DNA of 64,000 nucleotides from Buxus sempervirens. Lineage: Eukaryota; Streptophyta; Magnoliopsida; Buxales; Buxaceae. The position numbers were made by a program, and so were the translations under genes. The DNA is taken from contig OX387185.1 in NCBI GenBank assembly GCA_947561395.2, positions 40,372,602-40,436,601 of the forward strand, written 5' to 3'. Shown here piece by piece: positions 2,855 to 38,220 of the stretch (the stretch's first letter is position 1; each line of letters begins with the position of its first letter). The notes below the pieces were generated by a model. It saw only the letters and a list, made by a program, of their open reading frames with translations. It had not been told where the DNA came from and did no database searches.

Positions 2855-5800
2855 TCATTTGGAGGGGTTGCCTTTCGGCAGCTGTATTGTGGTTCGTGTA
2901 TCAAGAGGAATGGCGTGCCAAGGGATGCGTTTTAGCTCAGGTAGGTAAGACAAGGACAACGATGAGAGACGTGAGAATTTCAGTCGACTTTCTTTCACTT
3001 CTGCATCTTCACCATCACATATTAATTCGAGACACTTGCAGGTCTCCACAGAAAGTTCTTCAAGGTTAGGAGCACCACAGAGCCATGATAAATCCTTCAA
3101 TGCATTGCAATTGAAGATAATCACCACACGAAGGTTTGGGAAGCATCCAGTCGTGCCATCGCATATTACTTCGAGACACTCGCAGCCACTCACATCAAGT
3201 TTTTCAAGATTAGGAGCACCACAGAGCCATGATAAATCCTTCAATGCGTTGAAATTTGTGATAATCACCTCACGAAGGTTTGGAAAGCATCCAGCCATGC
3301 CATCGCGTATTAGTTCCAGACACTCGCAATCACTCACAGAAAGTTCTTCAAGGTTAGGAGAACCACAGAGCCATGATAAATCCTCCAATTCGTTGCAACT
3401 GTGGATAATCACCTTATGAAGGTTTGGAAAGCATCCAGTCGTGCCATCGCATATTAGTTCGAGATACTCGCAGTCAATCACAACAAGTTTTTCAAGGTTA
3501 GGAGCACCACAAAGCCATGATAAATCCTCCAATGTATTGCAACCCTTGATACACACTTTATGAAGGTTTGGAAAGCATCCAGCCGTGCCATTGCATATTA
3601 GTTCAAGACACTCGCAGTCTTTCACAGAAAGTTTTTCAAGGTTAGGAACACCACAAAGCCATGATAAATCCTCCAATGTATTGCAACCCTTGAAACGCAC
3701 CTTATGAAGGTTTGGAAAGAATCCAGCCGTGCCATTGCATATTAGTTCGAGACACTCGCAGCCACTCACAGAAAGTTTTTCAAGCTTAGGAGCACCACAA
3801 AGCCATGATAAATCCTCCAATGCATTGCAATCGTCGATCTTCACCTCACGAAGGTTTGGAAAGCCTCCAGCCGTGCCATCGCATATTTGTTGTAGAGCCT
3901 CGCAACCAAATATCAAAAGCTCACGGAGGTTTGGGAAGCATCCACCGGTTATGCCAACACGTAGACTCTTGCATTCAGTTATTTGAAGGGACACAAGGTT
4001 CGTAGATCCACGAAGTGCTGATAAATCCTTGAATGCATTGCATTGACAAATAAATAACTCAGTAAGGTTTGTAAAGCATCCACCCGTGCCATCACGTAGC
4101 TTTTGTAGACCCTTGCAACGTCTTACTTCAAGCTTCTTGGGGTTTACGCCATCGCATATTACTTTTAAATTCTTGCATCTATCTATTGTAAACAATTTAA
4201 TGTTCTGAGAACCATCAAGCCATGATAGATCCTTGAATTCGCAATTATCAATATAGACATCACGAATGTTTGACAAGGATCTATACTTCAAAATCTCTGG
4301 TATCAATATCTTGCAATTTTTGATACCAAAATTTCTTGTGCAACTCGCAAGTTTCTGAGAAGCGAGGATTCTATGAAGATAAGCAACATTTTTTATGTTG
4401 ATGGAGAGGTATTGTAGGTCCCTCAAGCATCCAAGTTCTTCTATGCTAGCTCCAACATTTCCTTCATCTTGACCAATATCACCACTTTCTGCTTCCCAAT
4501 GCTCAAATTTACTCAGAGTTAGGTCTAACACTTGTAACCTTGAAAACCTTGATAGTATTCCACGTGGAATGAATTTAAGGTGGTATGTATAACTCAAATC
4601 TAAACACTTCAATTTAACTAATTTTTTCATCTCTCTAGGCAACTCTGTTATGTTTGTTCCTGCCAAACCAAGGTACTCCAACTCAACCAATTCCGCAATG
4701 CTTGTTGGAAGCACATTAATACTTGTTTGAGAAAGATCCAAAAATCTGAGAAGATGCATATATTGAAAGAAACCATCGGAAATATTTCCCAAATTTTCAT
4801 TTTCAGAAATAATCAAAGTTAAGAGATTAGGACATTCAGGTGCCTCATCCCCCAGTTTTTCGATGTTGTTAAACATCAATGATATTCTTTCAGCCTCTCT
4901 CCATTTCCCAACGTTGGGCACTTCTACCAAGCATACACCCGCTTGCACTAGCAACTTGTTTTTCTTCCTTCCATCGTCACAACCTATCCATAGGGCCAAG
5001 TCCCGAAGGACATCATGCATCTTCACCTGTGTTCCTGGTGAATCTAGACCACTCTCCAGCAAGCAAGCCCGCTTTAAAATTCCAACGATTGCATATCCTT
5101 TGTCTTCAGCCTCATCTATGTCGTCAAATCCATCCAAGAATCCCTCCCCAATCCAGTAACGGATAAGCTGTTCTATCTCAATGGAATGATCTTCAGGGAA
5201 CATAGAACAGTATAAAAAGCAAGATCTAACGGTATCGTCACGCAATCTATCATAACTAAACTTCAAAATGGAATATACCTTGTCTTCCATACCTGAAAAC
5301 TCCGATGCAAACTTCTTCAAGATGGTTAATTGATGTCTCCATTCTTGGGGACTTTTCGTACTAGCCATAGCCTTGCCAGTAGTGATGAGTGCTAGTGGCA
5401 AACCACTACACTCTTTGGCGACTTGTTTAGCTATTACAGGTATTTCAGGATGGTAATTGAGGGCTTCTTCTCCAACCTTCTCTAGGAATAATTTCCAAGC
5501 TTCTGGCCACTCTAAGCATTCTACTCTTATCTTCGTATGAGCTTCCATTTGTCCGCACACATCCTCAGAACGAGTAGTGAATACTACCTTTGACTTGTTT
5601 ATGAGATCTGGATGAGGAATCCCAATTGTTGTCAAATCCACCGCTTCCCATACGTCGTCCAAAAATAGCACAAACCTTTTCTCACTCAACTTAGAGTGGA
5701 GCTTCGAAGCACGGACATCCAAGCTTTCATCCTCCAATAACGTCAACTCCAATCTCTTAGATACATCATCCTGTATCTTCTTTGCGTTTACTTCTCTGGA

Positions 5801-6429
5801 CACGACAACCCAAATCACCACATCAAAATGAGTGGTTCGTCGACGTAAAAATTCATTGTTGATCCGCTTCAGAAGGGTAGTCTTACCGACACCCCCGATT
5901 CCGTAGATTCCCATAATCCTCACATTGTTTTGGCTAATGCAGCTCCAAGCCTTCTCAAACATCAGATCCATGCCTGTAGTCGGTGCAGTAGGCATCTCTT
6001 CTACCAGAGCTGGGGGCAATGCCTCCGCTGCTATCTTGAAACCTCGTTCTTGGCCCTTTAGTTCGTCCACATCTTTTATTTTTCGTACCATTTTTTCCCG
6101 AGCTTGTAGCTGGAATAACAATTCACGGGGAGGAAACCTCCAAGGAATCTGTCCCCGATGTCTTCATAACCTTCTTTTAAGATTCCTTCTACTTGGTCTT
6201 CCATGGCGTCTGCCCTTTCCAGCCATCCCGCTACTTGGTGCGTTCGCCTCATTCGGTTTGCCTCTTGGGTTTCCACTCTTGCTCTAACATCATCCCTCAC
6301 GTCCTTCATTTCTTCAATCGAAGTTCGCAAAGCGTTGAGATTCTCTTCGAGCTCGCGGATGTAGCTTATAGGGCCTGCGCACAATTGGGAGAAGAAGCTG
6401 ATGATGTTCTTAATCGAAGAGAAGTCCAT
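2855..6429 (-). CDS. RPS5-type CC-NB-LRR immune receptor, one frameshift
   Basis: Intracellular NLR that would sense pathogen effectors and trigger defence. The start at 6429 (MDFSSIKNII) is chosen because it sits just before the coiled-coil; an in-frame ATG lies at 6579. Visible in order: a coiled-coil of about 110 residues; P-loop GIGGVGKTT near residue 175; RNBS-A FDVVIWVVVS; kinase-2 FVLFLDDVW; RNBS-B KVVFTTRS; GLPL as SGLPLAL; RNBS-D CFLYCSMFPED; MHD as VKMHDVLRDLALWI near residue 470; then LRRs to about residue 1190. Motif wording and lack of introns match the RPS2/RPS5 class. The frame breaks at the T6 run 6091-6096 (A6 in the gene): one more A would join the CC to NB-ARC. It is either a real 1-bp deletion or a homopolymer sequencing error. 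With the break, translation stops after about 115 residues, although an internal ATG at 6121 could give a CC-less product. Everything else is open. Confidence 0.93.
2990..3925 (-). repeat. 144-bp LRR-coding tandem array in the NLR
   Basis: The plus-strand landmark AAGGTTTGG recurs at 3131, 3275, 3419, 3563, 3707 and 3851, an exact 144-bp period (48 codons). Each unit encodes two LRRs: FPNL...CN(A/T)L(E/K), then DLSWLCGAPNLEKL and CECLEL(I)C(D/N)GT. Six clean copies are visible, plus more diverged ones up to about 4250. A half unit (about 75 bp) follows at 3926. The reading frame is kept throughout. Confidence 0.95.
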
Positions 6430-7399: not shown

Positions 7400-7479
7400 A
7401 ATCCTTTTTTTATTTTTATTTTTTTATGGCGAAACAGAAATACTTTTATTGATCAGAAATTGTTCTAGTAGTTACATGG
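7400..7479 (-). mobile_element. LINE 3' tail, left of the LTR element
   Basis: Read on the minus strand this is the last codons (TTRTISDQ-stop), a short 3' UTR with an AATAAA-like site, and an A-rich tail (T-rich on plus at 7405-7430). It continues directly from 20324-20440 across the LTR retrotransposon and its CATGG target duplication. Confidence 0.6.
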
Positions 7480-8366
7480 TGTAGGAAGAGAAAATTTTGA
7501 GATGCCACGTGGCAAAATCTCACAAAAGTATGGACCCCACTTAGAGATAAAATTATATAATCTCTAAAATAGCTAATAAATTGCTTGTGGGGCCCCTTTG
7601 AAGGATTATTATATTGATAATTCTAAAAAAAATGAATTATCTTTAAATGTGGATAATTATTCAAAAAAATAGAGAATTATCTACAACTTGTGATAACTCT
7701 CTCAAGAGTTTTAAATCTAGAGAGCTCTATCCTCCCAACATCTATAAATAGGGTGGTTCTCTCCTCATTCAAGGGACATGAAGTCTACAGAAGAAAAGAA
7801 TCAAATTTCTGCTACTCTGAAGACTGAAGCTCTGAAGAACTGAAGCTCTGCTGTTCTGAAGATCTAAATCACTGAAGAATTGAAGCTCTGATGTTCTGAA
7901 GATCTAAATCACTGAAGAATTGAAGTGCTGCTGTTCTGAAGATCCAACAAGCCTAGAAGAATTGAAGACTTGAAGACTAAAAATTGCATTCAAGATCTGA
8001 AGATTCAAACATCCAGTCTCTGACACGCTCTACAGCCCAGAGATCTACATAAAATACCAAAGTTTTCCAAGATCTTCAACAAGCACAAAAGCCGAAGATC
8101 AAGCCGAAGACTTTTCCCCAAATCTAGCACAGATCTACACGTGGAATCCACCAGATCTACCACTTTATCTGCTTTTCGTGAAGTTTGGAAAGCCGAAAAC
8201 CGATTTGGGATCAAGCTATTTTAGCCCTCAAATCGAAGATTTGTGAAGAAAAGAATCAAAGGAATCATAGAGATCTGTACCCTGCATTATTTTTAATAAA
8301 AATACAAATTTATTTGTATTGGCACATCTAATCCGTTTGATTTCAAACGCAAAATTTGTGTATACA
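7480..8366 (+). repeat. 5' LTR of the 12.8-kb element
   Basis: It begins TGTAGGAAGAG and ends TGTATACA. U3 holds a 10-bp palindromic G-box GCCACGTGGC (7503-7512). A TATA box TATAAATA (7743-7750) puts transcription start near 7775. Downstream (7840-7940) are three imperfect ~42-bp repeats of 'gaagctctg(c/a)tgttctgaagatc'. Confidence 0.95.
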
Positions 8367-8372
8367 AATTTT

Positions 8373-8391
8373 TGGCACGCCCGGTGGGACC
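8373..8391 (+). other. Primer-binding site
   Basis: TGGCACGCCCGGTGGGACC lies 6 nt after the 5' LTR. The identical 19 nt follows the 5' LTR of the 25.8-kb element, which supports it as the PBS. I could not assign the donor tRNA. Confidence 0.75.
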
Positions 8392-8453
8392 ATCTCTGCC
8401 TTTCATCTCTTTTCGTCATCAAAGGAATTTCTGCAAGTTCAAAGTCAACATCC

Positions 8454-11400
8454 ATGGCTCAAAGGTCAACATCGTCCAAGGCTACGCAGAAAGATATTGC
8501 TGAAAAGCCAACTGGATCTGATCCTAGGGCTCCGGTGTATCCTGGATTAAGTCTCAACACTCACGCAACTGGCGTGATTACTAGAAGTAGGGCGAAAGCT
8601 CTATCTCAACCAATTCAAGCGGTTACTGCTTTGCCAAAATCAATTCCAGTTTTTGGCACATCCAAATCTGCTCAACCTGCACTCACTTTGGCGACACAGG
8701 AGGCAAAGGAATCTACATCCAAGTCTGCGGAAAGGATCTTAACTCATCCTGTTTTCTCTCAAGATTCGAACTCTGGGAGTAAAACTGTCACGTCAGAAGA
8801 TGATAGTTCAAGCACAGGTTCTATGCCTGTATCACCCAGCAAGACACCGAGATCTACGTCTTCAAGACCCTCGGATACTGCTAACTCATCATATTCAGTT
8901 GCCATGCCAGTTATGATGACCCAAGGTGTTTCCCTTGAAGAGCAGATAGCAGCTATGGCTAAAGCTATTGAAGGACTCACCAAATCCGTTCAAGAAAAGG
9001 ATGCCCAGATTGCAACACTTGTGAGTAAACTTGAAACTGTTGGAGAGTCAAGTCATGGGCCGACTAATCCACCTAATTTCACTCCTCAACAAGCATCCCG
9101 TGATATTCCAGAATCATCAAATAAAGGAAAAAGCCCTGTTGAAGAAATCCCAATATCTTCTGATGTCTCTATTCCTGCTGGTCAACTTAAAGAATTCATC
9201 ATGAGCGCTATTCAGGATAAGTTTGAGGGTGGAACTCACTCTTCATTCTCATACTTGAAGCCTTATAGTCAAAGGATTAGTGAGATGAAGATTCCGGTTG
9301 GTTATCAACCACCAAAATTTCAACAATTTGATGGAAAGGGCAATCCGAAACAACACATAGCCCACTTTGTTGAAACTTGCAATGATGCTGGAACTGATGG
9401 TGACCTGTTGGTAAAACAGTTTGTGCGGTCGTTGAAGGGAAATGCCTTTGACTGGTATACAGACCTCGAGCCTAGCTCCATCGATAGCTGGGAGCAGATG
9501 GAAAGAGAGTTCCTCAATCGCTTCTATAGCACCAGGCGAACGGTTAGCATGATTGAGTTGACTAATGCCCGCCAATGGAAAGACGAGCCAGTGATCGACT
9601 ATATTAACCGGTGGAGGGATCTTAGCCTTAACTGCAAAGATAGGCTTTCAGAAGCTTCTGCAATAGAGATGTGCACTCAAGGCATGCATTGGGGGCTCCG
9701 TTACATTTTACAGGGGATTAAACCAAGATCCTTTGAAGAATTGGCTACGCGAGCTCATGATATGGAGCTTAGTATACAAGCTAATTCAAACCATGACATC
9801 CCTGTTTGTGAACCAGGAAGAAACAAAGACAAGCAAGAAAGCCGCAAAGGGGGCAAACCACCTGTTAAGCCTGGCAATGGAAAGGAATCAATGTCTGTGA
9901 ATGTGGCTCCAGTGAAGATTTCTACTAAACAAAAAGAGGAGAAAAGAACCACATCTGCTCAAGACAAAGGGAGAAAGAGACCTTCCTTAAAAGAATTGCA
10001 AGAGAAGCAATACCCTTTTCCTGATTCAGATGTCTCTGAGATGTTTGAGCAGTTGTTAAAATTAAAGTTAATCGAACTACCAACGTCAAAACGCCCTGAA
10101 GAGGCTGACCGTGTAGACGATCCTAACTACTGCAAGTACCATCGGGTGGTTAGCCATCCAATTGAAAAATGTTTTATTTTGAAAGAAAAGATCCTAGATC
10201 TTGCTAGTCAAGGAAAGATTGTCCTTGATAATGAAGAAGTGGCTACATCAAATCTTGCCACAATTACATTTGGGTCCTTTGACCCTATCATCCTGCCAAG
10301 ACAGCAGACGTCGCAAACTGGGGGCATGACCTCAACTGGAGGAGAAAAACCGTGTTTTGATGATGAAGGTTGGACTTTAGTTACTCGTCGAAAGAAACGA
10401 AGTTCACGTCTTCCACAGCCCAAGAAGACTTGTCAAAATAAGACCCGAAACAACAAAAGGATGACAAGCAAGGTGAAAAGAAATAAGCCAAGAAGAAAAG
10501 CACCGGTAAAGACAGTTTCACAAATGCCAACTGAATTTATTGAACAAAAGGCTCGTGTTCCAGTTACTTTACTGGAATTCATCCCAAAGAAATTTTTGGA
10601 AGGTATCTCTGCCGCAGCTAATGTTGTCTCATGTTATGAGATACATGATGAAGAAAAATTGATTGAAGATGCTGAAGAATTTTCTACAACCACTGACATG
10701 CGTCAAGATGTTGGGAATTCAACAAAAGACGGTGTTATAGGGATATTAAAAGACATCCCAGCTTCATTTGACGTCTATGATGCTCTCCGTTTTCCCACAA
10801 ATATGAGAATGGCTTTAGCTACTGCACTTACAAGTCCAAGTGATTACTTAGTCAAAGTCCCCCAAGTTGGAGTGTGTGCTGAAAAGTGTAAGAACACGTG
10901 CACGGCTTGCATGTCAACCATTAGCTTCTCTGATGAAGACTTACTGCTGGGAGCTAAACCTCATAACCGTCCTCTCTATGTCTCTGGATACATACGTGAA
11001 CAAAGGGTTAACAGGATCCTCTTAGATTGTGGTTCAGCTGTCAATATCATGTCCACAAAAACAATGAAGCAATTGGGCATCTCAATAGATGAGTTGGGTC
11101 AGAGTCGACTTATGATCCAAGGGTTCAACCAGGGTGGACAAAGGGCGATTGGAATGATTAGGCTAGAGGTGGTGATCGGTGAAATAAAATCAACTGCTTT
11201 GTTGCACATCATTGATTCCAAGACAACCTACAATGTGTTGTTAGGTAGGCCTTGGCTTCATGATCACGGAGTGGTGCCCTCTACTTTGCACCAATGTTTC
11301 AAGTTCTTTAGAGATGGAGCTCAAAAGAAGATAGTAGCAGATGACAAACCATTCTCTGAAGCAGAGTCTTACTTTGCCGATGCAAAATTCTACCAAGAGA

Positions 11401-12539
11401 TAGATACAATTAAAGAGGCTCAATCAACTTCTGTCCCTTCAACAGGAAAGACAAAACCTTGGGAATTGGTAGAATCACAAAAGTCAGTAAGAACAGCATT
11501 CGAAGTAAAGAACGACATAGGTAGGCGAGAAGCCAGCATAGGAGCAGAGAAAACTCCGACTACGTTGAACAAAAGCAAGCCCAATCCCGTACTTCGTTAT
11601 GTTCCACTTTCACAGCGAAAAGGCGAACAGTCCCCTTTCACAAATTATAAGAACGGGGAATCCAATGCATTAGATGATTTGACGTTCCCAGTTACCAAGT
11701 TGGATTCGTTAACCATCTCCAAGCCTCCATTAACGGGTTTTGTTCAATCTTCACAAGGTCCCATGTTTGAGTGTGAAGCATTGCCTTCAAAACGTCAAGG
11801 AGGATTCGACCCTAATGCTTACAAGTTTCTTGCCAAAGCGGGGTATGATCAAAAGAATTCTTCCTTAAGCAAAATTCCACCAGAGATTACTGGAGAAAAG
11901 GTGCATGGATTGAGTGAAACACAGAAAAAATTAAAAGAAAAGGGTTATGCAATCAATACCCCAAAAATAGGTATAGGTTATATTCCACCCGCACCAATTC
12001 ACATCTTCACCAAGAAGGAAAATGTACAACATATCACTGTTGAGGAAGTTGAAGAAAGTTCAAAAGAAGCTGAAGTTAAACGAACTTCTGTGTTTGATCG
12101 GCTTGGGGAGACTGCATCACGCATTTCTGTATTTGACAGAATTGGATCTCAGAATCTACCTCCTTCATATGTACATACGAAGAGATCAAACAATCGAAGT
12201 ATCCAAGAGCGGCTTTCGGGTGTAAAAAGGAGTAAGTGTAAGCACGCATATGGGAAGACCTCTGGTAAAAGTCTTTTAGAGGAATCGTGCAGCCTCTTTC
12301 CTTCGCGTATGAAGCGTCAATCTACCTTGGTCGTAACCAATGATGAAGCACTCAAGGTCAAGACGCGTACTGTAGTTTTTACAAGTCAACAGAGTTTGCA
12401 GGATGAAGACTGTGAGCTCTATGATGATGAGAATATACTTCCTTCTTGTCACATTACAGTTGAAGAAACTGACGAGGATGATGCTTTACATGAAGATGGT
12501 GTTAAACAAGCTCCACCCACATTAGAAGACGGCGGGTAG
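8454..12539 (+). CDS. Gag-protease polyprotein of the LTR element
   Basis: A protein of about 1361 aa. The start at 8454 (MAQRSTSSKATQ) is the first ATG after the PBS that is not inside the LTR/PBS. It has a Ser/Thr-rich N-terminus, then a retrotransposon gag core at about residues 285-440 (PPKFQQFDGKGNPKQHIAHF and later FLNRFYSTRRT), which forms the virus-like particle. A CKYH...H...CF zinc-binding-like cluster lies near 560. A retropepsin-like domain lies near 845-960, with active-site-like LLDCGSAVN (D858) and LLGRPWLHDHG. The canonical DT/SG is DCG here; this may be a family variant or weaken catalysis. A long C-terminal linker ends at TAG (12537-12539). The frame is otherwise intact, which fits a recently functional element. 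Confidence 0.9.
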   Translation: MAQRSTSSKATQKDIAEKPTGSDPRAPVYPGLSLNTHATGVITRSRAKALSQPIQAVTALPKSIPVFGTSKSAQPALTLATQEAKESTSKSAERILTHPVFSQDSNSGSKTVTSEDDSSSTGSMPVSPSKTPRSTSSRPSDTANSSYSVAMPVMMTQGVSLEEQIAAMAKAIEGLTKSVQEKDAQIATLVSKLETVGESSHGPTNPPNFTPQQASRDIPESSNKGKSPVEEIPISSDVSIPAGQLKEFIMSAIQDKFEGGTHSSFSYLKPYSQRISEMKIPVGYQPPKFQQFDGKGNPKQHIAHFVETCNDAGTDGDLLVKQFVRSLKGNAFDWYTDLEPSSIDSWEQMEREFLNRFYSTRRTVSMIELTNARQWKDEPVIDYINRWRDLSLNCKDRLSEASAIEMCTQGMHWGLRYILQGIKPRSFEELATRAHDMELSIQANSNHDIPVCEPGRNKDKQESRKGGKPPVKPGNGKESMSVNVAPVKISTKQKEEKRTTSAQDKGRKRPSLKELQEKQYPFPDSDVSEMFEQLLKLKLIELPTSKRPEEADRVDDPNYCKYHRVVSHPIEKCFILKEKILDLASQGKIVLDNEEVATSNLATITFGSFDPIILPRQQTSQTGGMTSTGGEKPCFDDEGWTLVTRRKKRSSRLPQPKKTCQNKTRNNKRMTSKVKRNKPRRKAPVKTVSQMPTEFIEQKARVPVTLLEFIPKKFLEGISAAANVVSCYEIHDEEKLIEDAEEFSTTTDMRQDVGNSTKDGVIGILKDIPASFDVYDALRFPTNMRMALATALTSPSDYLVKVPQVGVCAEKCKNTCTACMSTISFSDEDLLLGAKPHNRPLYVSGYIREQRVNRILLDCGSAVNIMSTKTMKQLGISIDELGQSRLMIQGFNQGGQRAIGMIRLEVVIGEIKSTALLHIIDSKTTYNVLLGRPWLHDHGVVPSTLHQCFKFFRDGAQKKIVADDKPFSEAESYFADAKFYQEIDTIKEAQSTSVPSTGKTKPWELVESQKSVRTAFEVKNDIGRREASIGAEKTPTTLNKSKPNPVLRYVPLSQRKGEQSPFTNYKNGESNALDDLTFPVTKLDSLTISKPPLTGFVQSSQGPMFECEALPSKRQGGFDPNAYKFLAKAGYDQKNSSLSKIPPEITGEKVHGLSETQKKLKEKGYAINTPKIGIGYIPPAPIHIFTKKENVQHITVEEVEESSKEAEVKRTSVFDRLGETASRISVFDRIGSQNLPPSYVHTKRSNNRSIQERLSGVKRSKCKHAYGKTSGKSLLEESCSLFPSRMKRQSTLVVTNDEALKVKTRTVVFTSQQSLQDEDCELYDDENILPSCHITVEETDEDDALHEDGVKQAPPTLEDGG

Positions 12540-12707
12540 GCTACGGTTGATGAGTTAAAAGAACTCAACTTGGGTACTCCTGAAGATCCTAGGTCGATTT
12601 TTGTAAGTGTTGATTTAACACCTGCAGAAGAGACTGATTATTTTAATCTTCTACGTGAATTCAAAGACGTGTTTGCGTGGAGCTACAAGGAACTATGTGT
12701 GACTTGA
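12540..12707 (+). pseudogene. RT N-terminal stub after the gag-PR stop
   Basis: Directly after the TAG, in the same frame, 55 codons stay open to TGA at 12705. They read DELKELNLGTPEDPRSIF and, further on, FKDVFAWSYKE, the conserved lead-in to the reverse transcriptase of plant Ty3/gypsy elements. The catalytic RT, RNase H and integrase are absent: the next sequence, CTTGGGTACGTAGGCAGCCT, looks like post-pol untranslated sequence. The RT-to-INT block appears deleted as one piece. Confidence 0.8.
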
Positions 12708-12998
12708 TCCTTACTTGGGTACGTAGGCAGCCTGGGAAGTTACTCCAGGTTCAGTCCAAATCATTATCATCCTTACTAAGTATGGGGAATGAGCATTCAA
12801 AGTCAATCAACAATCATGATACAAAAAGAAAAGAGAAAAAGAAAAGAAAACAAGTATTAAATTGATATCATGATTAATTGAACTCCTAGCTAACATTCAT
12901 TGCTGAATCAAAAAAAAAAAGAGAGAAAAAGAAAGCTAACAATCATGGAAGAAGGAAGGAAAAAGAAGAAGACAATATAAGACAAAAGTAGTACGCTG

Positions 12999-15900
12999 TC
13001 ATCCCCAATTCAGGCTTCGAATCTCATTACGCTCGTCTTCTAGCAACCCTTGCATGGTTTTTAAAGTTGAAAAATCTGCTTCACAAGCAATGGGAAGAGA
13101 ATCAATGGCTTCCAATTCTTTGATTACGGACGTTACTAAGGCCTCGCTCTCATCTACTGCTGACCTGCGTTCCAAGAGGGATTCATTTAGCTTCCGTTCC
13201 TGGTCTTCCAAATCCTTCAGCTGTGCTTTCAATTTGACTTGTTCTGACTGATTGTTTGACAAGTCTTTTTCCAGATTTTGAATGTCCTCATATATGATGC
13301 CTCGATCAAGTGTCACAAGACCAAATCGAAGATTAGCAGCTTCACGACGTCGAGCCTGTTCTTCTGGTGTCACCTGCTGGCCCAATGATGATTGCAACTG
13401 AATATAGCTACCAACATTCTGGATATAGCGGTTAATGCAGTCTCGTAGAGGTGATGGATCTATCGACTTGGTATCTATAATTGCATCAAAGATTTTCTTA
13501 ACATCACCCACGAAAGACGCCACCTGATCCAAGGGTAACCGTAATAATTTCTGCTTTAAGCTTTCACCCATTGACAAAGCGCACCTTCGACGTGCTTCCA
13601 AAATTACATCTGAGGCTTGAAATACAGAAACTTCAGGAACTGCGTCCGCCCTTGAAATAGTTGGTATATGTGATTGATCTTTGTTTTGTCCAACAACCTT
13701 ACTAGGTACATTGTTCATGATCTTTGAAAGAACTTGGGGAACTTCTTCCTCTTGTACATCAGAATCAACAATAATATGATTGCCTTGTTGACGCCCCTGA
13801 GTATCACTAGAAGTCAAGGCTCCAACTTCTTTTGTAGCCAAATCAAAAGCAGTGGGTCCTTCAACTGAAGAACCGCAAGAATTGATCTCATCATTGTTAT
13901 GGCCTTGTAAATCTTCATCTCTTGCCTTTCACATGCATAAAAAGAAAAAGAGGTTAATTGATAGAAAAAATAAAATAAAATCTCAATCAAACAAGAATAG
14001 ATAAAATACTTACATTTTGCTCTGAAAGGTGTTGTGAAGAAGGAGGTGCTGTGTTTGGATCACGAGCATTTGAAGAATGTCTGCTACTAGACCGTGGCTT
14101 TTTATTACATGGAGAACTAGTTTGAGGTCTTACATGCTTCCAGCATTGATCTTTATCTGTGTTGCTACAACTTGGAATGATCATAGTTGCACCAACTCTT
14201 TTCTTGCTTTGATCTCGAACCACCTTTTCAGTAACTTGGGCAGGGATATTCTTAATTGGCTTGTCTTTCTTAAACTTTGCTGATTTTCGAGGTAGTGGAT
14301 ACGTACTTTCAATAAGGACACTAATATCCATCGAGAAGTAATCATCTGAGACCTTCAGCCACCAATCACAATAGCGCCTGGTAGCTAGCAGTTCCTGTTC
14401 ATCCATGCGTGCTGGCAAGAAAATCCTTGCTTCAGTATTTGACTTGATGCAAGATTTCCATAGCTGACGTATATCATCTAAGGTACCACTGCGTATATCT
14501 GGATCTAATGTGCCTGGCATATCCTGGTGGTATCCAAATTGCCTGCTAAATCGATGAGGACTGTAGGGTTCTATAACATAATGATTGTCACGCCTTGTTG
14601 ACAGAAAACAAGAGCGTAGACTCATGAAATATTCAAAGTCTATAGCCCGTATTCCTCTCTCATCAATAAGGGTATATGATGTCTCTGCTATAAATGCTGT
14701 TGGGCAAAACAATAAGTTCCTTCTTGACCTGAATAGTAAGCGAGACGAAGTCTCATCAAAATGCCTAGCAGCTCGATCACCTGCAAATTTGGTCATAAAA
14801 GGAATACCCTTGGAAGATGATGATCTATGATGAGTCCCAAAATACTCAGCCAACCAACCATAAATATAATGCACTGGAAATGCGATGCTGTATTCGCAGG
14901 GACTAGATGAAGAGGCAATTTCATTCAAATTGCGATATATACTTGCTAAGACTGGAATTGCAAGGCAAACCCTTCGCCCAGTAGCCATTAGGCTAGCCAT
15001 CTTGAAGGTAGAAGGACGAATTAGATTGCCATCTTCAATCGGGAGGGCAAAAGAACATAACCAACATGCAATAAAAGCAGCCAAATAAACCTCATCTTTT
15101 ATTGCATCTTCAACTCCAAGATCAATAAAGGGTCCTTGATTTTCTTCTTCTATCATGATATCTTCAAGAATTCCAGAAGGTTGCCCAGTGGACCTCATTC
15201 GGATAGCTGGCTTTGTTGATCTTCTTACAGCAGGCTTACTAAATCTTTTTGAACCTCTGAACCAGAATTTCACCCAATCAGCAGTTGTCACTGTCCTTGA
15301 CCCATCTTTCTTTTTACAAAGAAAGTGAAATGCTGAGAAAAGATACCGACAGCCTTTGGGAAGTGTGGAATTGCATTTCCTATCACTGCCCACTAATTCC
15401 TGAGTAGAAGGAATCACTTCATCATAGAAGCATCCCGTGATATGAAGTCCTCCAATTTGACGTAAATCCCATAGAGAAATAGAAAGCTCACCCATTGGAG
15501 TATGAAGAGTATTTGTCATAGGGCACCAGGATTCAAGAAAAGCCCTCATAATATGCACATTTCGATCATAGATAAAAAGAGATGCATATAATGCATCGTA
15601 CAATAATGTCCTCTTGAGAGTAGCACGATACTTCTTGAGCACGGCTTCCAACCATTCCCAATATCCTTCAATATAAGAGAATCCAGCAAACATCTTGAAC
15701 GAGCTACCCCATCGTATTTCCTTGGCAATAATTCTTCGTCCAAGAAAAGGAAATATTTCTGATCTAATTAAGTCAGAGTGATGAGAAGACTTCAGTAATG
15801 GGACTCTTTTAGCCAAAGTAGTGCCTGGATCCGGTGTCCCCAAGGCAGATAATTCTCTTGTAGAATCAATCCACCAACGAGTTAAGTGAAGAGGCCTTTC

Positions 15901-16044
15901 AGAATCAGAACAAATTAAAGCAAACGGTCCTGTAGCTGGTGGAAAGACGGGGAATGTAATCCCATCTTCTATAGCCTCTTCAGTATTGCCAAGAATAGTT
16001 ATACTACGGTTTTCTGAAGATGAAGATCCTTTAAAGAAAACCAT
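12999..16044 (-). CDS. Antisense plant mobile domain gene, two coding exons
   Basis: Encoded opposite to gag inside the element. Coding exon 1 is 14014-16044; donor GTAAGT on the minus strand; intron 13926-14013 (88 bp, GT..AG, phase 0); exon 2 is 12999-13925. The product is about 985 aa. Exon 1 shows a plant mobile domain (PMD, 'aminotransferase-like'): FPVFPPATGPFAL, LTRWWIDSTREL, SYIEGYWEWLEAVL, CPMTNTLHTPMGELSISLWDL, IGGLHITG and later FEYFMSLRSCF and IEPYSPHRFSRQFG. A basic Ser/Pro-rich stretch follows; exon 2 ends in a coiled coil (about 13,050-13,320). The start at 16044 is chosen because a polypyrimidine tract plus GCAG acceptor lies just upstream at 16057, implying a 5' UTR exon further upstream. 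Cellular PMD proteins (MAIN/MAIL1) act in nuclear silencing and genome stability; the role of transposon copies is unknown. The reading frame is fully open. Confidence 0.88.
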
Positions 16045-16393
16045 GATGTTGAAAGCCTGCACGCACCAAAAATAAAAAGAAGAGAGAAAGGGGGTTGTAG
16101 GAGCATTGCATGGACAAAATTTAAGCAGAGAATTATATTTTCACAAAAAAAAAAAAGAAAAGAAAAGAAAGTTAAGCAAGAAGTGGCTGCGACAGGAGGC
16201 CAGAATAGTTGCAAGTCTTTGATCTTTATCATGATCATAAGGCAACCCTTGATCTCATGCAAAATCTCCAAGTTGAACGTCATTCATGAGATGCCAAGAA
16301 AATTATGGACCAAAGTGCCGATTTAAAAGAAAGACCACATAGACTTCTCTTGTAAGAAGCAAGTATATATCACTTTGGCAAATATAATATGAG

Positions 16394-16735
16394 AAACTAG
16401 TCGGGTCAAGATCCAGATTCGGCATGACATCACAACATGTTCTCAGCCTGTTTCCATCTTCAAAACTAGTCGGGTCAAGATCCAGATTCGGCATGACATC
16501 ACGAGATGTTCTCAGCCTATTTCCATCTTCAAAACTAGTCAGGTCAAGATCCAGATTCGGCATGACATCACGACATGTTCTCAGCCTGTTTCCATCTTCA
16601 AAACTAGTCGGGTCAAGATCCAGATTCGGCATGACATCACGACATGTTCTCAGTCTATTTCCATCTTCAAAACTAGTCGGGTCAAGATCTAGATTCGGCA
16701 TGACATCACGACAATATTCTCAATTCATTTGATTG
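16394..16735. repeat. 69-bp tandem repeat array (~4.9 copies)
   Basis: The landmark AAACTAG recurs at 16394, 16463, 16532, 16601 and 16670, an exact 69-bp period with very few differences. As 69 is divisible by 3, both strands stay open across the array (minus-strand unit MPNLDLDPTSFEDGNRLRT plus CRDV), but I see no gene start, so this is probably an artefact of the period. Tandem arrays between pol and the 3' LTR are known in Tat/Ogre elements and can seed satellites. Confidence 0.93.
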
Positions 16736-16739
16736 CAAT

Positions 16740-19420
16740 CCCCGAGAGCAAAGAACACATAAAGACAAGTAACTTATAAAGTTGCAGTCCACAAACAAAG
16801 GATGTTTACATGGCAATATGGAAGAATTATGCAATGATAACTTATTTCAAAAAAAAAAACAGAAATAAAGAAGAGCAAAGCATAAAGAAAGCAAAGGAAG
16901 GAAATTACCTGTTCAAAGATAGGGCTGAATACAAGAGATGCAAAACTAGAAGTTGTGAAGAGCCTCTTCTTTTGGGTGGTTACACGGCTTGACAATTGCA
17001 CCAATCCAGAAATATCTCACAGCTTATATAATTGTGAGGGGTGCAAGTATCCCTTTCTAGTGGAACACAAAAAGAACTAGAGTTACAAGATAAAGGAAAA
17101 TTTGTAAGGTCCTATAAGCATTTGATTTGTGTAGGCATCCGTTCAAGTTTTGTTGAGAAAGCTTAATGTAGAGATGGACTTGATCTCCATCCCAGATAAG
17201 AATTCCCCAAGAATATTGTATCTCATGTACTTGGAAATCACTAAAACTCTAACAAGAGTTAGATAGCCGTACAAGTCCCAAGAGTTAAGGCCAACTCTCC
17301 TCAGATGCCATAAAAGTGACGCTAAGGTGTAAAGAATAAGGAGCTGTTAATGGTCCTACAGACCAAATAAACTAAGCCTCTTGTGGTACAAAATACAAAC
17401 AGTATTCAAGAGGTCTCACAAATATCCAATTGGGGTTGTCTTCGGTCCAAGACTCTAGACCATAAAGTGGTCCTACAGACTAATAAAAAAGGGAAAAGGG
17501 TCCTTCTGATACGCTTTTAACAACAAGGGAGGAGAAGAGCACCAGCTCCAGTCAATCACAGAACAATAGCCAGTCCTGCCCGAAGTGGTAATGGGGGTTC
17601 TAATGAAGATACTTCCATCATGGATAGCTTGCAGGCATTAAAAAAAGAAAGAAGAAACTTACACTAAAATTTGGCACAAGTTGTCGTAGATCTTCCAGTT
17701 GCACAATTACTTACGTATTTCTGCAAACATCAAGAGAAGGAAATCATGAAGATCAGTTTGGGATACTGCTGGAGAAGAAAGTTTTTAGGACAATTACTAG
17801 CAGCTACTACTGTGGAGTACACATGGCATTATAGTGGTATATGATGTGGCAAACAAAGATGGTTTCAACAATATGAAGCATTAATGGTTGTATGAAAACG
17901 TGAACAAGCTTTTGGTTTGTCAAGGCATATATGCATGACTTTGGCATACCCATCATGGAAACCATCATATAAAGACATATATGGATGACATTGGCATACC
18001 CATCATAAAAAATAAAAAAAAAAAAAGAAGAAGAAGAAGAAGGCTATTAACGTGGAACAAACTTTCATGGCAATTGCTAAAGAACAAAATAGCAAGTCAA
18101 CCAGCCATGAATAATGCCATATCTCCATCAACTTGCCATAAGATTCTGAAGTGTATACAACAATGAGATTTTGAAAAGCTTCAAGAATTTATTAAAGAGA
18201 AGAAATAGAGATACAGGGAGAGAGAGACGTCAACTTTACGTTTTCTCTAATTCTCTTCCTGTTTAATGGAAGGCCAATTCACTCTATAACAGAAAATTTG
18301 AGTAAGAAAGTGGACAAAAAAAAAAAAAGCAATTTTATATTTGGCACCGCTCATGAGCCCGTACTGGCTTCACAACGTTAGCCATTACTGAACCAATCTA
18401 CAACTCTTACAAAAGAGAACGGATATGGACATGTTTATCGGTAATGATCGATGCTCAATGTTGCAGATACAAAGACAACCCAGCAATCATAAGGCTGGCT
18501 GTTGTTCATCTTGAACAAACACTGGTATGGTTTCATATTGCCACAACATTAGTGGTCCGACCACAAGAGAAAAGAAAGAAAAAGAGACAAAAATTAAACA
18601 TAAAAGAAATTAAAGGAGAGATATCTTACATGCAGTAGATGATTCAAAGAATGCTACTACAGATTTTGATCATGCCATCAACGTGTTCCAAAACAAGGAG
18701 ATGCCGTGTTTATGCTTCTATGGATTTTGATTTTGATCTCAACGTGTTTCCAAAACAAGGAGATGTCGCGCTTATATAAGGGTAAAAGAGTAGTTCTTTT
18801 CCAAGTCAAACCCTAGAAAAGTTAGTCTCCTTATCTAAGTTGAACACTAAAGGAGGGGATCAATGAAAGCAAAAATCCAATCATGGGTTAGAATCCGTGA
18901 ACGTTGAGAATACATGGACCACATGTTTAGAGTTGCACAATTTGTTAAAACTCTTGATACAAGAGCCCATGGACTATTAAATATTTATATATAGACTATG
19001 TTGTTACGTGGAGTTCAAAGAGTCAAAGTGCTTCTTAATTGTACATCTCCAACTCTTTGGATTTAAGAGGATTTGCTTTCCTACTAAGCACGAGTGTTTA
19101 AAAAAGTTGGCTTTCCAACCAGGCACGTGTGGCTAAAAAGCCCTCCATGCTTTACAATCCGAATCACACATAAGCTTGATGGTCATGTAAAATCTTTTCA
19201 AAGGTTCTTTTTTGAGTATCAAAGATGAATACCATTTAAGGGTATTAAAGGAGCAGTTAAAAGAAAAATGTTGGTTTTGCATAACCAATCCCATGCAAAA
19301 TTATCAAAACATCGGCCAAAAAAAAAAAAAAATTGGCAAATTGTTTCAAACTCAAGCTTCACAAATACAAGGTCGAGCCTTGTTTACTCAAAGCGCGCAC
19401 AACAAGTTGTGCAAGCAAAC
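16740..19420. other. Non-coding 3' internal region of the LTR element
   Basis: No convincing ORF. It contains candidate minus-strand splice donors upstream of the PMD gene (CAG|GTAATT at about 16909; GTAAGT-like sites near 17665 and 17715). There is a short duplicated segment with GGCATACCCATCA at 17940-18005. A second duplication has CAACGTGT(T)TCCAAAACAAGGAGATG at 18680-18770. A palindromic TATA-like CTTATATAAG lies near 18772-18781 and could serve the antisense gene. Confidence 0.5.
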
Positions 19421-19427
19421 AAGCCTC

Positions 19428-19438
19428 GAGGGGGCATT
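19428..19438 (+). other. Polypurine tract
   Basis: CGAGGGGGCATT lies directly before the 3' LTR (TGTAGG), the expected place for the plus-strand primer. Confidence 0.7.
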
Positions 19439-20323
19439 TGTAGGAAGAGAAAATTTTGAGATGCCACGTGGCAAAATCTCACAAAAGTATGGACCCCACT
19501 TAGAGATAAAATTATATAATCTCTAAAATAGCTAATAAATTGCTTGTGGGGCCCCTTTGAAGGATTATTATATTGATAATTCTAAAAAAATGAATTATCT
19601 TTAAATGTGGATAATTATTCAAAAAAATAGAGAATTATCTACAACTTGTGATAACTCTCTCAAGAGTTTTAAATCTAGAGAGCTCTATCCTCCCAACATC
19701 TATAAATAGGGTGGTTCTCTCCTCATTCAAGGGACATGAAGTCTACAGAAGAAAAGAATCAAATTTCTGCTACTCTGAAGACTGAAGCTCTGAAGAACTG
19801 AAGCTCTGCTGTTCTGAAGATCTAAATCACTGAAGAATTGAAGCTCTGCTGTTCTGAGATCTAAATCACTGAAGAATTGAAGTGCTGCTGTTCTGAAGAT
19901 CCAACAAGCCTAGAAGAATTGAAGACTTGAAGACTAAAAATTGCATTCAAGATCTGAAGATTCAAACATCCAGTCTCTGACACGCTCTACAGCCCAGAGA
20001 TCTACATAAAATACCAAAGTTTTCCAAGATCTTCAACAAGCACAAAAGCCGAAGATAAAGCCGAAGACTTTTCCCCAAATCTAGCACAGATCTACACGTG
20101 GAATCCACCAGATCTACCACTTTATCTGCTTTTCGTGAAGTTTGGAAAGCCGAAAACCGATTTGGGATCAAGCTATTTTAGCCCTCAAATCGAAGATTTG
20201 TGAAGAAAAGAATCAAAGGAATCATAGAGATCTGTACCCTGCATTATTTTTAATAAAAATACAAATTTATTTGTATTGGCACATCTAATCCGTTTGATTT
20301 CAAACGCAAAATTTGTGTATACA
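19439..20323 (+). repeat. 3' LTR of the 12.8-kb element
   Basis: 885 bp against 887 bp for the 5' LTR. Differences I could see: A7 instead of A8 near 19590, one C/A substitution and one missing A near 19850, and one A/C near 20057. TSD CATGG follows at 20324-20328. Confidence 0.95.
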
Positions 20324-20440
20324 CATGGCCTGTAGCATCACTAAACAAAATATTACATAGGCCCCCAGGCAGCCTAACAACCCAAAAACATGCGAAGGCG
20401 TCGAGAGCAAAGTTTGCTAGATATTCGTACATGATTACTT
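20324..20440 (-). pseudogene. LINE RNase H C-terminal fragment, right of the LTR element
   Basis: The minus strand reads YEYLANFALDAFACF, then GLCNILFSDATGHV, like the last residues of the RNase H region of plant LINEs (xxLANxALD...). The frame carries on into 7479-7400 if the LTR element and one CATGG are removed, ending TTRTISDQ-stop. Upstream coding sequence is lost beyond about 20440. Confidence 0.55.
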
Positions 20441-29243: not shown

Positions 29244-30805
29244 TGACGGCAAGAAGAAGTACTCGGCATGATGAAAGCGCAATGCCAGAGGAACATGCCG
29301 AATCTCAGGTAAATCCTCTATTCGTGTCAGAAGTTCCTGAAGAAGGACCTTCAAGTTCTCAGCCAGATCTTAATGAACGGCTTATTCAGGCCTTACAAGG
29401 TCTTAGCCAACAAATGGCAGGATTTGGTCAGGGTATTAACAAAATTTCTTTCGATAATGGTAGAATCTTAGCAGTATTGCAGGAAGGACTCTCTACAAAT
29501 GCAAGACCAGCCATGATGGCCGAGCGAGCCGAAACATTGGCCGCTAGTTCAAATGCTCATGAGAGAATAACTGTCCCAGAGCAGTTACCGCCTGTAAACT
29601 TAGGCGGTAATGGCTGAAATGAGACGGCCAACGTCGCTGCTACTAGAGGAGAAATACCTCCTGTTATCCCAAATCCTCCCAATGTGCCTCTGGCCGAACT
29701 ACACCCAGGGGGCAAAGGGAGGCCCAAGAGAACCACAGAGAGGACATTGGCGTAAGGAATATGGCCATAAACCGTAATTACATTCAGAATGTAATTCAAG
29801 AGATGATCGGAGATCAATATCACCGACAAATGACTAGGCCAGTATATCGTAAACCTTACCCAGCCTGGATTGACCAGCAATTTGAATTTCCTAGGGGATA
29901 CAAAATTCCTGAATTCTCTTTGTTTTCAGGAGAAGGCCAACAATCTACCATTGAACATATTGGCCGATTTACGGTCCAATGTGGAGAGGCTACCGGTAAT
30001 GATTTCCTCAGACTCAGATTATTTGGAAATTCATTAACCGCACAGGCCTTTACATGGTACATTACGTTGCCGGCTAATTTCGTTACAAATTAGGCAATGA
30101 TGGAAAAAAAATTTCATTCCCAATTTTATCGAACGGAACCCGAAGTCACCATGGTTGATCTTGCTCAGTTAAGACAACAACCAGGGGAATCGGCCGATAA
30201 ATATATCGCTCGATTCAAATATATGAAGAACAAATGCCGAATTCTTTTACCAGAATCGGAGTTTGCAAATCTAGCTTTGAATTGTCTACACTTCGAACTT
30301 CGAAAGAAGTTTGAAGGTGAACAGTTTGAAGACCTATTCGAGTTGTCGGCCAGGGCAGCCAAGTATGAATGGCTGTTACAGGAAGACAACGAAAAGAAAA
30401 CCTCATCTTACGGGTCGTATTACAGGGACCCGAATTTTGAGTACGGAATTGTAGAGGTCGTGGGAAAACAATCGATCACCTGTCCGATTCTTATCCGAAA
30501 AACCAAGGATAAAGAAGAAACGAAAGAAACAAATACCTTCAGCCGAAATTACTCTTTTGATATTCAAAAAACGGCTGAGATATTTGAATATCTTCTAAAA
30601 CAGGGGTTTTTCAGACTAACCAAAGACCACCCGTTTATCCTGGCCAGTGTAGCGGCCAAGGGTAAAACGTGTAAATGGCACGGAGTAAAAACTCATGAAA
30701 TTAATGAGTGTATTGTGCTTCGAAATGTGATACAGGAAAACATTGATAAAGGACTCCTGAAGTTCGCCAAGACAGACAAGGAAAAGATGCAAGTTGACAC
30801 ACAAC
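29244..30805 (+). pseudogene. Broken gag of the deleted element
   Basis: Starts MTARRSTRHDESAMPEEH. An internal stop lies near 29616, then frame changes and stops near 29756 and 30092 (FVTN-stop). A retrotransposon gag core follows: PRGYKIPEFSLFSGEGQQ, TIEHIGRF, KKFHSQFYRTEPE and QQPGESADKYIARF. A zinc-binding-like CKWHGVKTHEINEC lies near 30670-30710. The last ORF runs by chance into the 3' LTR relic and stops near 30975. Non-functional. Confidence 0.85.
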
Positions 30806-36633: not shown

Positions 36634-37869
36634 TTAATGGAAAGGGTTTAAAGCATTCGGATTATATAGTTGCAGTGCCCAAGCTTCAATCGCGTCATTG
36701 TTTTGATACTCATCCGGCGAATTCACCGATGCTTCAAGCAATGTTTCCCAGCTGACATTGTTGTCCAACTGATCGAAGTCATCAAACTGAATTAATGGCT
36801 CCCTCTCTTCCTTCTCCATAAAAGTCTCCCAGTTTATGCTGATCATCAAACTGTCCTGCACAAATTGTCCCTCGCCTTCGTCGGCCATGGAATTCAAGGG
36901 CGATTCTCCAGTAGACGACGCCGGTGATGTCGCCGACGAAGATGAATCCTTCAACTGCCACATTCCACTGAGGAAGTTCTCAAGAGCCCTCACTTGTATC
37001 TGTGGAATTTTGTCTACGAGAGGGTACTCATAAGGTCCACATAAACTCATGGACCTGCACCAATCGTAGAACTCACTGAGTTGACTCGCTTGGAGAGCTG
37101 CTCTCTTGTACATGTCTAAAGCTGCTATGGAACTCCGGCGGTGCATCTGAAGGAGGTTGTCGAGGACGACGATCATGTCCCTTCGGAACGCAGCGTAGCT
37201 GACGAAGCTCTCACGAACGATTTGTTTCATCGCCAATCTGACCAAGAAGCTTCGAGCTACTAACCGAGTCGGCCTGCAGTCCATGACTCGGTCCATGAGG
37301 CTCTGAAGCTGAGGCAGGAACTCAAGAACTCCACCCACTTCGTTCATCTCCTCCGAGAAGCTCTCCAACGACTCGTCGCCATTGATGTTACTCTCAGGAG
37401 AGACGCAATCCAGAGCCTCGTCTAGGAGACGAGCGTAACAGTGAACGAAAATGGTGAAATCATATGCTGTGGAGGAAGAAGAGATGTCCCGGAAGTGACA
37501 TGGGTATAGAGAGAGCATACGGTTGGATCTTGACCAGAGAATGGCGGATCGAAATGGGCTGATTTCGGGGACAGATCGAAGCAGACGATGGAGGAGGATC
37601 AAGCACTTGAGTGCAACTCGCCAGCACCGAGTCTTTCCGAATCTGCGGGTGAAGCTCAGCGAGAAATCTCTGTAGGAGGAAGGTGAGATGGAGAAGATTT
37701 GCAGGAGCTCCTGCACGTACTTCTCCGATAATGGCAGGTCATCAGGAGCTGTTGCTTTGAGCACAACCATGTCAAGATTGCATAACCCGCCGACGGTCGC
37801 AATCTTCGCCAAGTTGACGGAGCTGTGCTCTTTTACGCAATTGAAGGCTCGCCGGAATCGTCTCTGCAT
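36634..37869 (-). CDS. ANTH-domain clathrin assembly protein
   Basis: A protein of 411 aa, intronless, fully open. It resembles plant putative clathrin assembly (AP180/CALM) proteins of the short At1g33340/At5g10410 type, which bind phosphoinositides and recruit clathrin at the plasma membrane or trans-Golgi. The start at 37869 (MQRRFRRAFNCVKEHSS) is chosen because the ANTH domain begins there; upstream codons are low-complexity leader. The ANTH domain spans about residues 20-290 (VVLKATAPDDLPLSEKYVQEL, RVALKCLILLHRLLR, FVHCYARLLDEAL, ALDMYKRAALQASQL). The basic N-terminus could bind lipid, but the exact PIP2 motif was not verified. A Ser-rich acidic tail follows (INWETF, VSWETLLEAS) and an NPF motif ends the protein (ALNPFH), a classical EH-domain ligand. 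Flanked by hAT elements and MITEs but not disrupted. Confidence 0.93.
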   Translation of the reverse strand: MQRRFRRAFNCVKEHSSVNLAKIATVGGLCNLDMVVLKATAPDDLPLSEKYVQELLQIFSISPSSYRDFSLSFTRRFGKTRCWRVALKCLILLHRLLRSVPEISPFRSAILWSRSNRMLSLYPCHFRDISSSSTAYDFTIFVHCYARLLDEALDCVSPESNINGDESLESFSEEMNEVGGVLEFLPQLQSLMDRVMDCRPTRLVARSFLVRLAMKQIVRESFVSYAAFRRDMIVVLDNLLQMHRRSSIAALDMYKRAALQASQLSEFYDWCRSMSLCGPYEYPLVDKIPQIQVRALENFLSGMWQLKDSSSSATSPASSTGESPLNSMADEGEGQFVQDSLMISINWETFMEKEEREPLIQFDDFDQLDNNVSWETLLEASVNSPDEYQNNDAIEAWALQLYNPNALNPFH

Positions 37870-38016
37870 CGTAGCACAGCGAGATAGATCGATCGAAGGC
37901 AAGAGAGACAGAGAAGGGAGCTCAGACTTGGATAATGAGAGAGGGAGGAAGAGGGGGGGATTTTGTTCTGGAGCGTGAAGCCTAAAGAAGAACGACGTGA
38001 AAGTGAAATGAATTCG

Positions 38017-38028
38017 TAGTTTATATGG
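38017..38028 (-). promoter_or_regulatory. ANTH gene TATA box
   Basis: The minus strand reads CCATATAAACT about 150 bp upstream of the start codon, followed by a pyrimidine-rich leader (TCTCTCTTGCC...), as in many plant 5' UTRs. Confidence 0.55.
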
Positions 38029-38220
38029 TTGCGTGTGGGTCTGCATCCTGCAGAGATATACAGAGGTTTTCCGTTTTTGCTCGGTAGGACCGTAAATGTA
38101 CAAGAAACATGTCGTCTCTATTAGGCAGAGAATTATCTGGTGCATGTACACGTAACAAAGTTTGGTGGTGTCTTTCATTCATGGTTTATGATTAGTCCAC
38201 GTGTGTATATTTATACATGG

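Follow-up and report, generated by a model that had tools for sequence, protein, structure and literature searches.

Ogre/Tat retrotransposons with an extra open reading frame (eORF) coding for a plant mobile domain (PMD) were reportedly described by Steinbauerova in 2011. A PMD eORF is reported in 57% of Ogre elements (Neumann 2019, PMC6317226). Where plant Gypsy elements have been surveyed, the PMD is the commonest extra domain and appears in Gypsy consensuses of ten species (PMC9289625), and PMD-A clades are reported to be exclusively Gypsy-encoded (Ikeda 2017, PMC5418596). The function of the domain is described as unknown (PMC7156037, PMC9289625). Angiosperms also have genic PMD proteins (PMC5418596), and MAIN/MAIL1 are required for the silencing of transposable elements (TEs) (PMC5418596, PMC7156037). 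Retand elements carry an antisense TRP28 ORF and some are non-autonomous (Vicient 2025, PMC11963269), semi-autonomous GAG-Pro families have been described in wheat (RLG_Sabrina_SA and RLG_WHAM, PMC9744471), and a TR-GAG insertion has been observed in ddm1 Arabidopsis (PMC8704663). VANC21 binds short motifs, often tandem repeats, in non-coding VANDAL21 DNA, and methylation is lost (PMC5735166). That PMD proteins serve as a tool against silencing has already been suggested for MULEs (PMC5418596) and for TEs generally (PMC8616336); a term search finds no mention of the PMD in a 2026 review on the capture of genes by plant TEs (PMC13317346). Here we analyze a retrotransposon located at positions 7480-20323 of a 64-kb stretch of Buxus sempervirens DNA (hereafter the window). 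On balance, we favor the explanation that it is a recent pol-less Ty3/gypsy derivative, copied in trans, with an antisense PMD gene whose product would be an anti-silencer acting like VANC21.

The antisense PMD gene is organized as follows:

14014..16044, reverse strand: exon 1, with the ATG at 16044, the PMD (PF10536) and a predicted VANC21-like fold over residues 63-576
13926..14013, reverse strand: intron of 88 bp, GTAAGT...AG
12999..13925, reverse strand: exon 2, with the coiled-coil tail and the stop codon

The spliced product of 985 aa matches Pfam PF10536 with an E-value of 2.7e-33, which bears out the open two-exon antisense gene announced in a preliminary description of the locus. A protein search with this product gave 280 matches, of which the best 120 are considered here; the best identity is 44% and 43 of the 120 relatives are at least 850 aa long. 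The gene is real beyond chance because its spliced protein aligns end to end (residues 1-984) with proteins annotated in Fagus (P0003), Rhododendron (P0008), Coffea (P0007) and Rosa (P0005). The alignment reaches beyond residue 900 of 985 in 34 of the 120 listed relatives, in agreement with the earlier claim that the intron and the coiled-coil tail would be unlikely to persist by chance, and the tail of the protein family matches solved coiled coils in a profile search of the PDB. Of 93 conserved columns exon 1 retains 90, and the 59 relatives in the alignment retain a median of 96.6%. Upstream of the gene there are 6 TATA-like sites compared with 3.2 expected in shuffles, the nearest 986 bp away; bacterial promoter patterns were set aside as meaningless for plant DNA. 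Since its relatives are colinear over their full length, the antisense gene is an old component of this protein lineage. It appears to be a PMD eORF native to the lineage, membership in the Gypsy-encoded PMD-A group resting on the literature, and the "host-like gene" of the preliminary description finds no support (PMC6317226, PMC5418596). A PMD gene captured from the host as a mere passenger would have a source in the genic PMD proteins of angiosperms (PMC5418596). We nevertheless consider this highly improbable, given that the nearest proteins are colinear over 985 aa and have the same tail, that many clusters occur in each of several species among the matches listed, and that PMD-A clades are reported as Gypsy-only (PMC5418596); recent host capture was rejected on the first two grounds.

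Two predicted models of the PMD domain match the fold of the VANC21 DNA-binding region (PDB 9lnj) in Foldseek, covering 316-323 of 362 residues at 7% sequence identity. The prediction is thus that the domain adopts the same fold as the part of VANC21 that was crystallised bound to DNA, and the DNA-binding-region fold by which a VANC-like anti-silencing protein would be recognized is matched by both models with moderate scores. The predicted isoelectric point of the PMD region (8.9) allows DNA binding without demonstrating it. VANC21 is not among the best 60 of 292 PDB matches in a family profile search, a PDB sequence search with exon 1 returned weak matches only, and a viral structure library gave nothing better than E 2.9. 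A Pfam scan found the PMD in 43 of 43 relatives, DUF1985 and DUF287 being outside the 25 families listed. No link between the PMD and VANC folds was found in the literature searched, although the paper describing 9lnj may already state it.

Weighing against an anti-silencing role are the fold scores, which are only moderate, and the need for host MAIN/MAIL1 in TE silencing (PMC5418596, PMC7156037), which makes an effect of opposite sign possible. The PMD protein of the element might thus repress its own family as a form of copy-number control, or work with host MAIN/MAIL1, and PMD transcripts are reported to give phased small interfering RNAs in tea (PMC10673657). We hold this to be unlikely: the retention of the PMD in elements of many plant species would fit a benefit to the element better (PMC9289625), and the closest solved fold to the predicted models is that of the anti-silencer VANC21. 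The proposal of the preliminary description that the gene helps the element escape silencing is not new as a speculation (PMC5418596, PMC8616336), but the predicted fold match with VANC21 brings a new kind of support to it. A broader and more tentative reading, which we think could be true without expecting it, is that the PMD is a VANC-type sequence-specific DNA-binding fold used as an anti-silencer by Tat-lineage elements. Class I and class II TEs would then share this fold, MAIN/MAIL1 would have been domesticated from it, and the present copy would be a helper in trans.

On the sense strand, the element retains the 5′ part of a gag-pol polyprotein:

8454..12539, forward strand: gag-protease ORF of 1361 aa, from its ATG at 8454 to its TAG at 12537-12539 (Pfam, alignment to relatives)
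12540..12695, forward strand: remaining polyprotein linker, 52 codons open past the TAG (homology to gag-pol)

The gag-protease ORF contains Retrotrans_gag (E 2.2e-14) and a gag-asp_proteas match (E 7.8e-05) under the curated Pfam cut-off (23.6 vs 28.2 bits). It retains 227 of 233 conserved columns, meaning those with 90% or higher conservation among 26 relatives picked from the 120 matches listed; the median of the relatives themselves is 94%. Residues 42-1361 align at 42-44% identity with Fagus gag-pol proteins P0122, P0123 and P0125, which carry Pfam entries PF00078, PF17921, PF17919 and PF13456. We take these to be reverse transcriptase (RT), an integrase-related domain and two kinds of RNase H, as expected of Tat. 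Placement in the Tat/OTA clade goes by RT, RNase H and integrase and by an additional RNase H (aRH), all of them parts of the pol that this copy lacks. The element is probably a pol-less derivative of a eudicot Ty3/gypsy retrotransposon of the Tat clade (Ogre/Retand-like), the clade label coming from the literature. It has the PMD eORF of the Ogre subclade, a feature not exclusive to Ogre, and is not assignable to Ogre or Retand because the RT is gone from this copy. Profile and protein searches of viral contigs (PMD protein, gag-pol alignment and PMD alignment) yielded no confirmed relatives, and neither did the genome contigs searched with the PMD alignment.

We compared 15 gag-pol polyproteins, picked among 120 listed, with the whole window (tblastn, E<=0.01). 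The matches are confined to gag, protease and linker, and the RT, RNase H (RH) and integrase (INT) parts of the queries have no match in the window, confirming the lack of RT-RH-INT noticed earlier. Homology runs across the TAG up to 12695, the exact endpoint of the match for 12 of the 15 queries (the remaining three end at 12176, 12464 and 12566) and the breakpoint of the pol deletion. Because homology stops there and RT, RH and INT have no match in the window, pol is absent through an internal deletion starting in the linker just before RT. The gag-protease frame is open over its 1361 aa, as the preliminary description had it, but the polyprotein frame is broken by the in-frame TAG and then cut 156 bp further on by the deletion. 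At the position of the TAG, 42 of 42 readable relatives have a sense codon (46 were matched by the post-TAG stretch). The element therefore lacks the RT, RH and INT of an autonomous retrotransposon and keeps gag and protease without RT and INT, in the manner of TR-GAG and semi-autonomous GAG-Pro elements. Two more Ty3/gypsy gag regions are found at 29695-30798 (forward strand) and 56038-57237 (reverse strand), sharing 22-32% identity with gag in the 15 queries, which gave no pol match near these regions either. Among the proteins listed, P0126 (Malus, 1361 aa, in a gag cluster of 307 members) and P0127 (Coffea, 1317 aa) are gag annotations without pol domains; they may represent pol-less families or breaks in the annotation, and their ends are not the same as the breakpoint at 12695.

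The boundaries and remaining features of the element are:

7475..7479, unstranded: left target-site duplication (TSD), CATGG
7480..8366, forward strand: 5′ long terminal repeat (LTR) of 887 bp, TG...CA, with TATAAATA at 7743 and a 40-bp tandem array at 7808-7967
8373..8391, forward strand: primer-binding site (PBS)-like site, TGGCACGCCCGGTGGGACC
16394..16722, unstranded: array of 4.8 tandem 69-bp units, located upstream of the antisense PMD gene
19428..19434, forward strand: polypurine tract (PPT), GAGGGGG
19439..20323, forward strand: 3′ LTR of 885 bp, with TATAAATA at 19701 and a tandem array at 19766-19924
20324..20328, unstranded: right TSD, CATGG

Paired LTRs, a TSD, a PBS-like site and a PPT are thus all present, as in an LTR retrotransposon; no tRNA gene to compare with the PBS-like site was found in the window, the Ogre subclade being marked by a PBS of the tRNA-Arg type. 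The LTRs are 99.5% identical and differ by 2 substitutions and 2 one-base indels, the four or so events counted before, and the perfect TSD was likewise found again. At substitution rates of 7e-9 and 1.3e-8 per site per year, the LTR divergence of ~0.0023 corresponds to an insertion age of ~0.09-0.16 million years.

The 52 codons past the TAG contain no stop and keep 20 of 22 conserved columns (91%), one of the two lost being the last codon, right at the breakpoint; the share kept by the relatives over this stretch has a median of 96% and a minimum of 83%. Median identity of the stretch to 36 relatives is 0.64, compared with 0.65 among the relatives themselves. In a simulation of neutral decay, the probability of losing at most 2 conserved residues was 0.18 for K=0.10 and 0.03 for K=0.15. 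Pol was lost recently, because so many conserved columns survive past the TAG; the remnant would bound the loss to roughly K<0.15, which is a bound on age only. This near absence of decay is also what a single deletion product would leave, an autonomous copy having lost pol either during the final round of reverse transcription or once inserted, with gag-protease and PMD intact merely through youth. We give this explanation about an even chance. The LTR divergence fits a single recent deletion, and the element is present in one copy in the window. On the other hand, the copy has gained both a stop codon and a deletion, making at least two events, pol-less gag-protease families are known to amplify (PMC9744471), and the share of columns kept past the TAG is under the median of the relatives, yet inside their range.

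Alternatively, the element may belong to a semi-autonomous family that is established and amplifies in trans, gag-protease and PMD being under selection, a scenario to which we assign a slightly less than even chance. Intact gag-protease and PMD genes beside a clean loss of pol speak for it, as do the precedents of RLG_Sabrina_SA and RLG_WHAM (PMC9744471) and of TR-GAG in ddm1 Arabidopsis (PMC8704663). Against it, a second copy was not seen in the 64-kb window, and the young remnant of pol leans against a long-standing pol-less family. The anatomy and the young LTRs fit the earlier view of a non-autonomous element mobilized in trans; the recency of pol loss leans towards a young derivative over an old non-autonomous family.

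In the anti-silencing explanation that we favor, the RNA of the element would be packaged in its own Gag particle or that of a relative, then copied and integrated by RT and INT supplied in trans. The antisense gene would be separately transcribed and spliced to give a nuclear DNA-binding protein, perhaps dimeric via its coiled-coil tail. By analogy with VANC21 on VANDAL21, this protein would bind non-coding DNA of its own family and counter silencing. Since sibling copies can be served in trans by such a protein, a copy that lacks pol but has gag-protease and PMD would count as a semi-autonomous helper and not a pure parasite.

Each LTR contains a tandem array, and another lies upstream of the PMD gene, 350 bp from its start. 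The 8-mer AAGATCYA occurs in both kinds of array (40-bp and 69-bp units), with 15 occurrences in the window versus 7.3 expected, a count that none of 100 shuffles reached. This count is inflated because 10 of the 15 occurrences fall inside the arrays, and the motif was chosen post hoc; we therefore rejected it as evidence for a common binding motif. By our arithmetic, a near-8-mer common to the 40-bp and 69-bp units is expected about once by chance. Two 8-mers and no 9- or 10-mer occur two or more times in the LTR as well as in the 3′ non-coding region, and the k-mer comparison revealed no convincing motif common to the LTR and 3′ non-coding arrays.

About 1.4 kb to the left of the element lies an NB-ARC-LRR disease-resistance-like ORF (1088 aa, 2858-6121, reverse strand, NB-ARC E 1.2e-66) that contains repeats at 144-bp spacing (3012-3908). 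An ANTH-domain clathrin assembly-like gene occupies 36637-38178 on the reverse strand, with a best identity of 57% to Ilex and Nyssa proteins, in keeping with a eudicot host. An ORF at 62638-63321 on the forward strand has a weak endonuclease/exonuclease/phosphatase match (E 0.00064, under the cut-off).

The predicted fold match to DNA-bound VANC21 leads to the hypothesis that the PMD binds specific DNA motifs and, in the versions carried by TEs, may relieve silencing. Two questions become testable in this way, what antisense PMD ORFs are for in Tat elements and where the MAIN/MAIL1 pathway came from, and the element offers a compact test case, pol being gone and gag-protease and PMD being nearly all that is still encoded. 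If the broader reading given above is true, class I and class II plant transposons would have one anti-silencing fold in common, and MAIN/MAIL1 would be domesticated forms of a transposon anti-silencer. Among the best 15 of 492 papers in the literature searched, none reports an element that lacks pol and has an intact antisense PMD gene, which is a weak negative.

The element shares with Ogre/Tat elements carrying a PMD eORF (PMC6317226, PMC5418596) a Ty3/gypsy gag-protease, the PMD eORF, a 5-bp TSD and non-coding tandem arrays, but it lacks RT-RH-INT and has an in-frame TAG ahead of the deletion. As in Retand (PMC11963269), an antisense ORF lies between the polyprotein and the 3′ LTR, tandem arrays are present, and some Retand clusters are without canonical domains; the antisense ORF codes for a PMD here and for TRP28 (PF04195) there, and RT is also lost here. 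The survey of Retand is blind to RT-less elements because intact RT domains were its starting point. RLG_Sabrina_SA, RLG_WHAM and TR-GAG similarly kept Gag (with protease in the wheat families), lost RT and INT and are presumed to be mobilized in trans, but the available portions of their descriptions mention neither a PMD nor another antisense gene (PMC9744471, PMC8704663). MAIN/MAIL1 of Arabidopsis (PMD-C; PMC5418596, PMC7156037) belong to the same domain family, whereas they are genic and act in TE silencing; they are compared with the element by description only. VANC21 (PMC5735166; 9lnj) resembles the PMD protein in its predicted fold and in being encoded by a TE with non-coding tandem arrays. 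In contrast, VANDAL21 is a MULE-type DNA transposon, sequence identity is as low as given above, VANC is described with DUF1985/DUF287 and not the PMD, and DNA binding and anti-silencing have been demonstrated for VANC alone. The element is a joining of individually known features, for which the anti-silencing guess is old and the structural reason specific and new.
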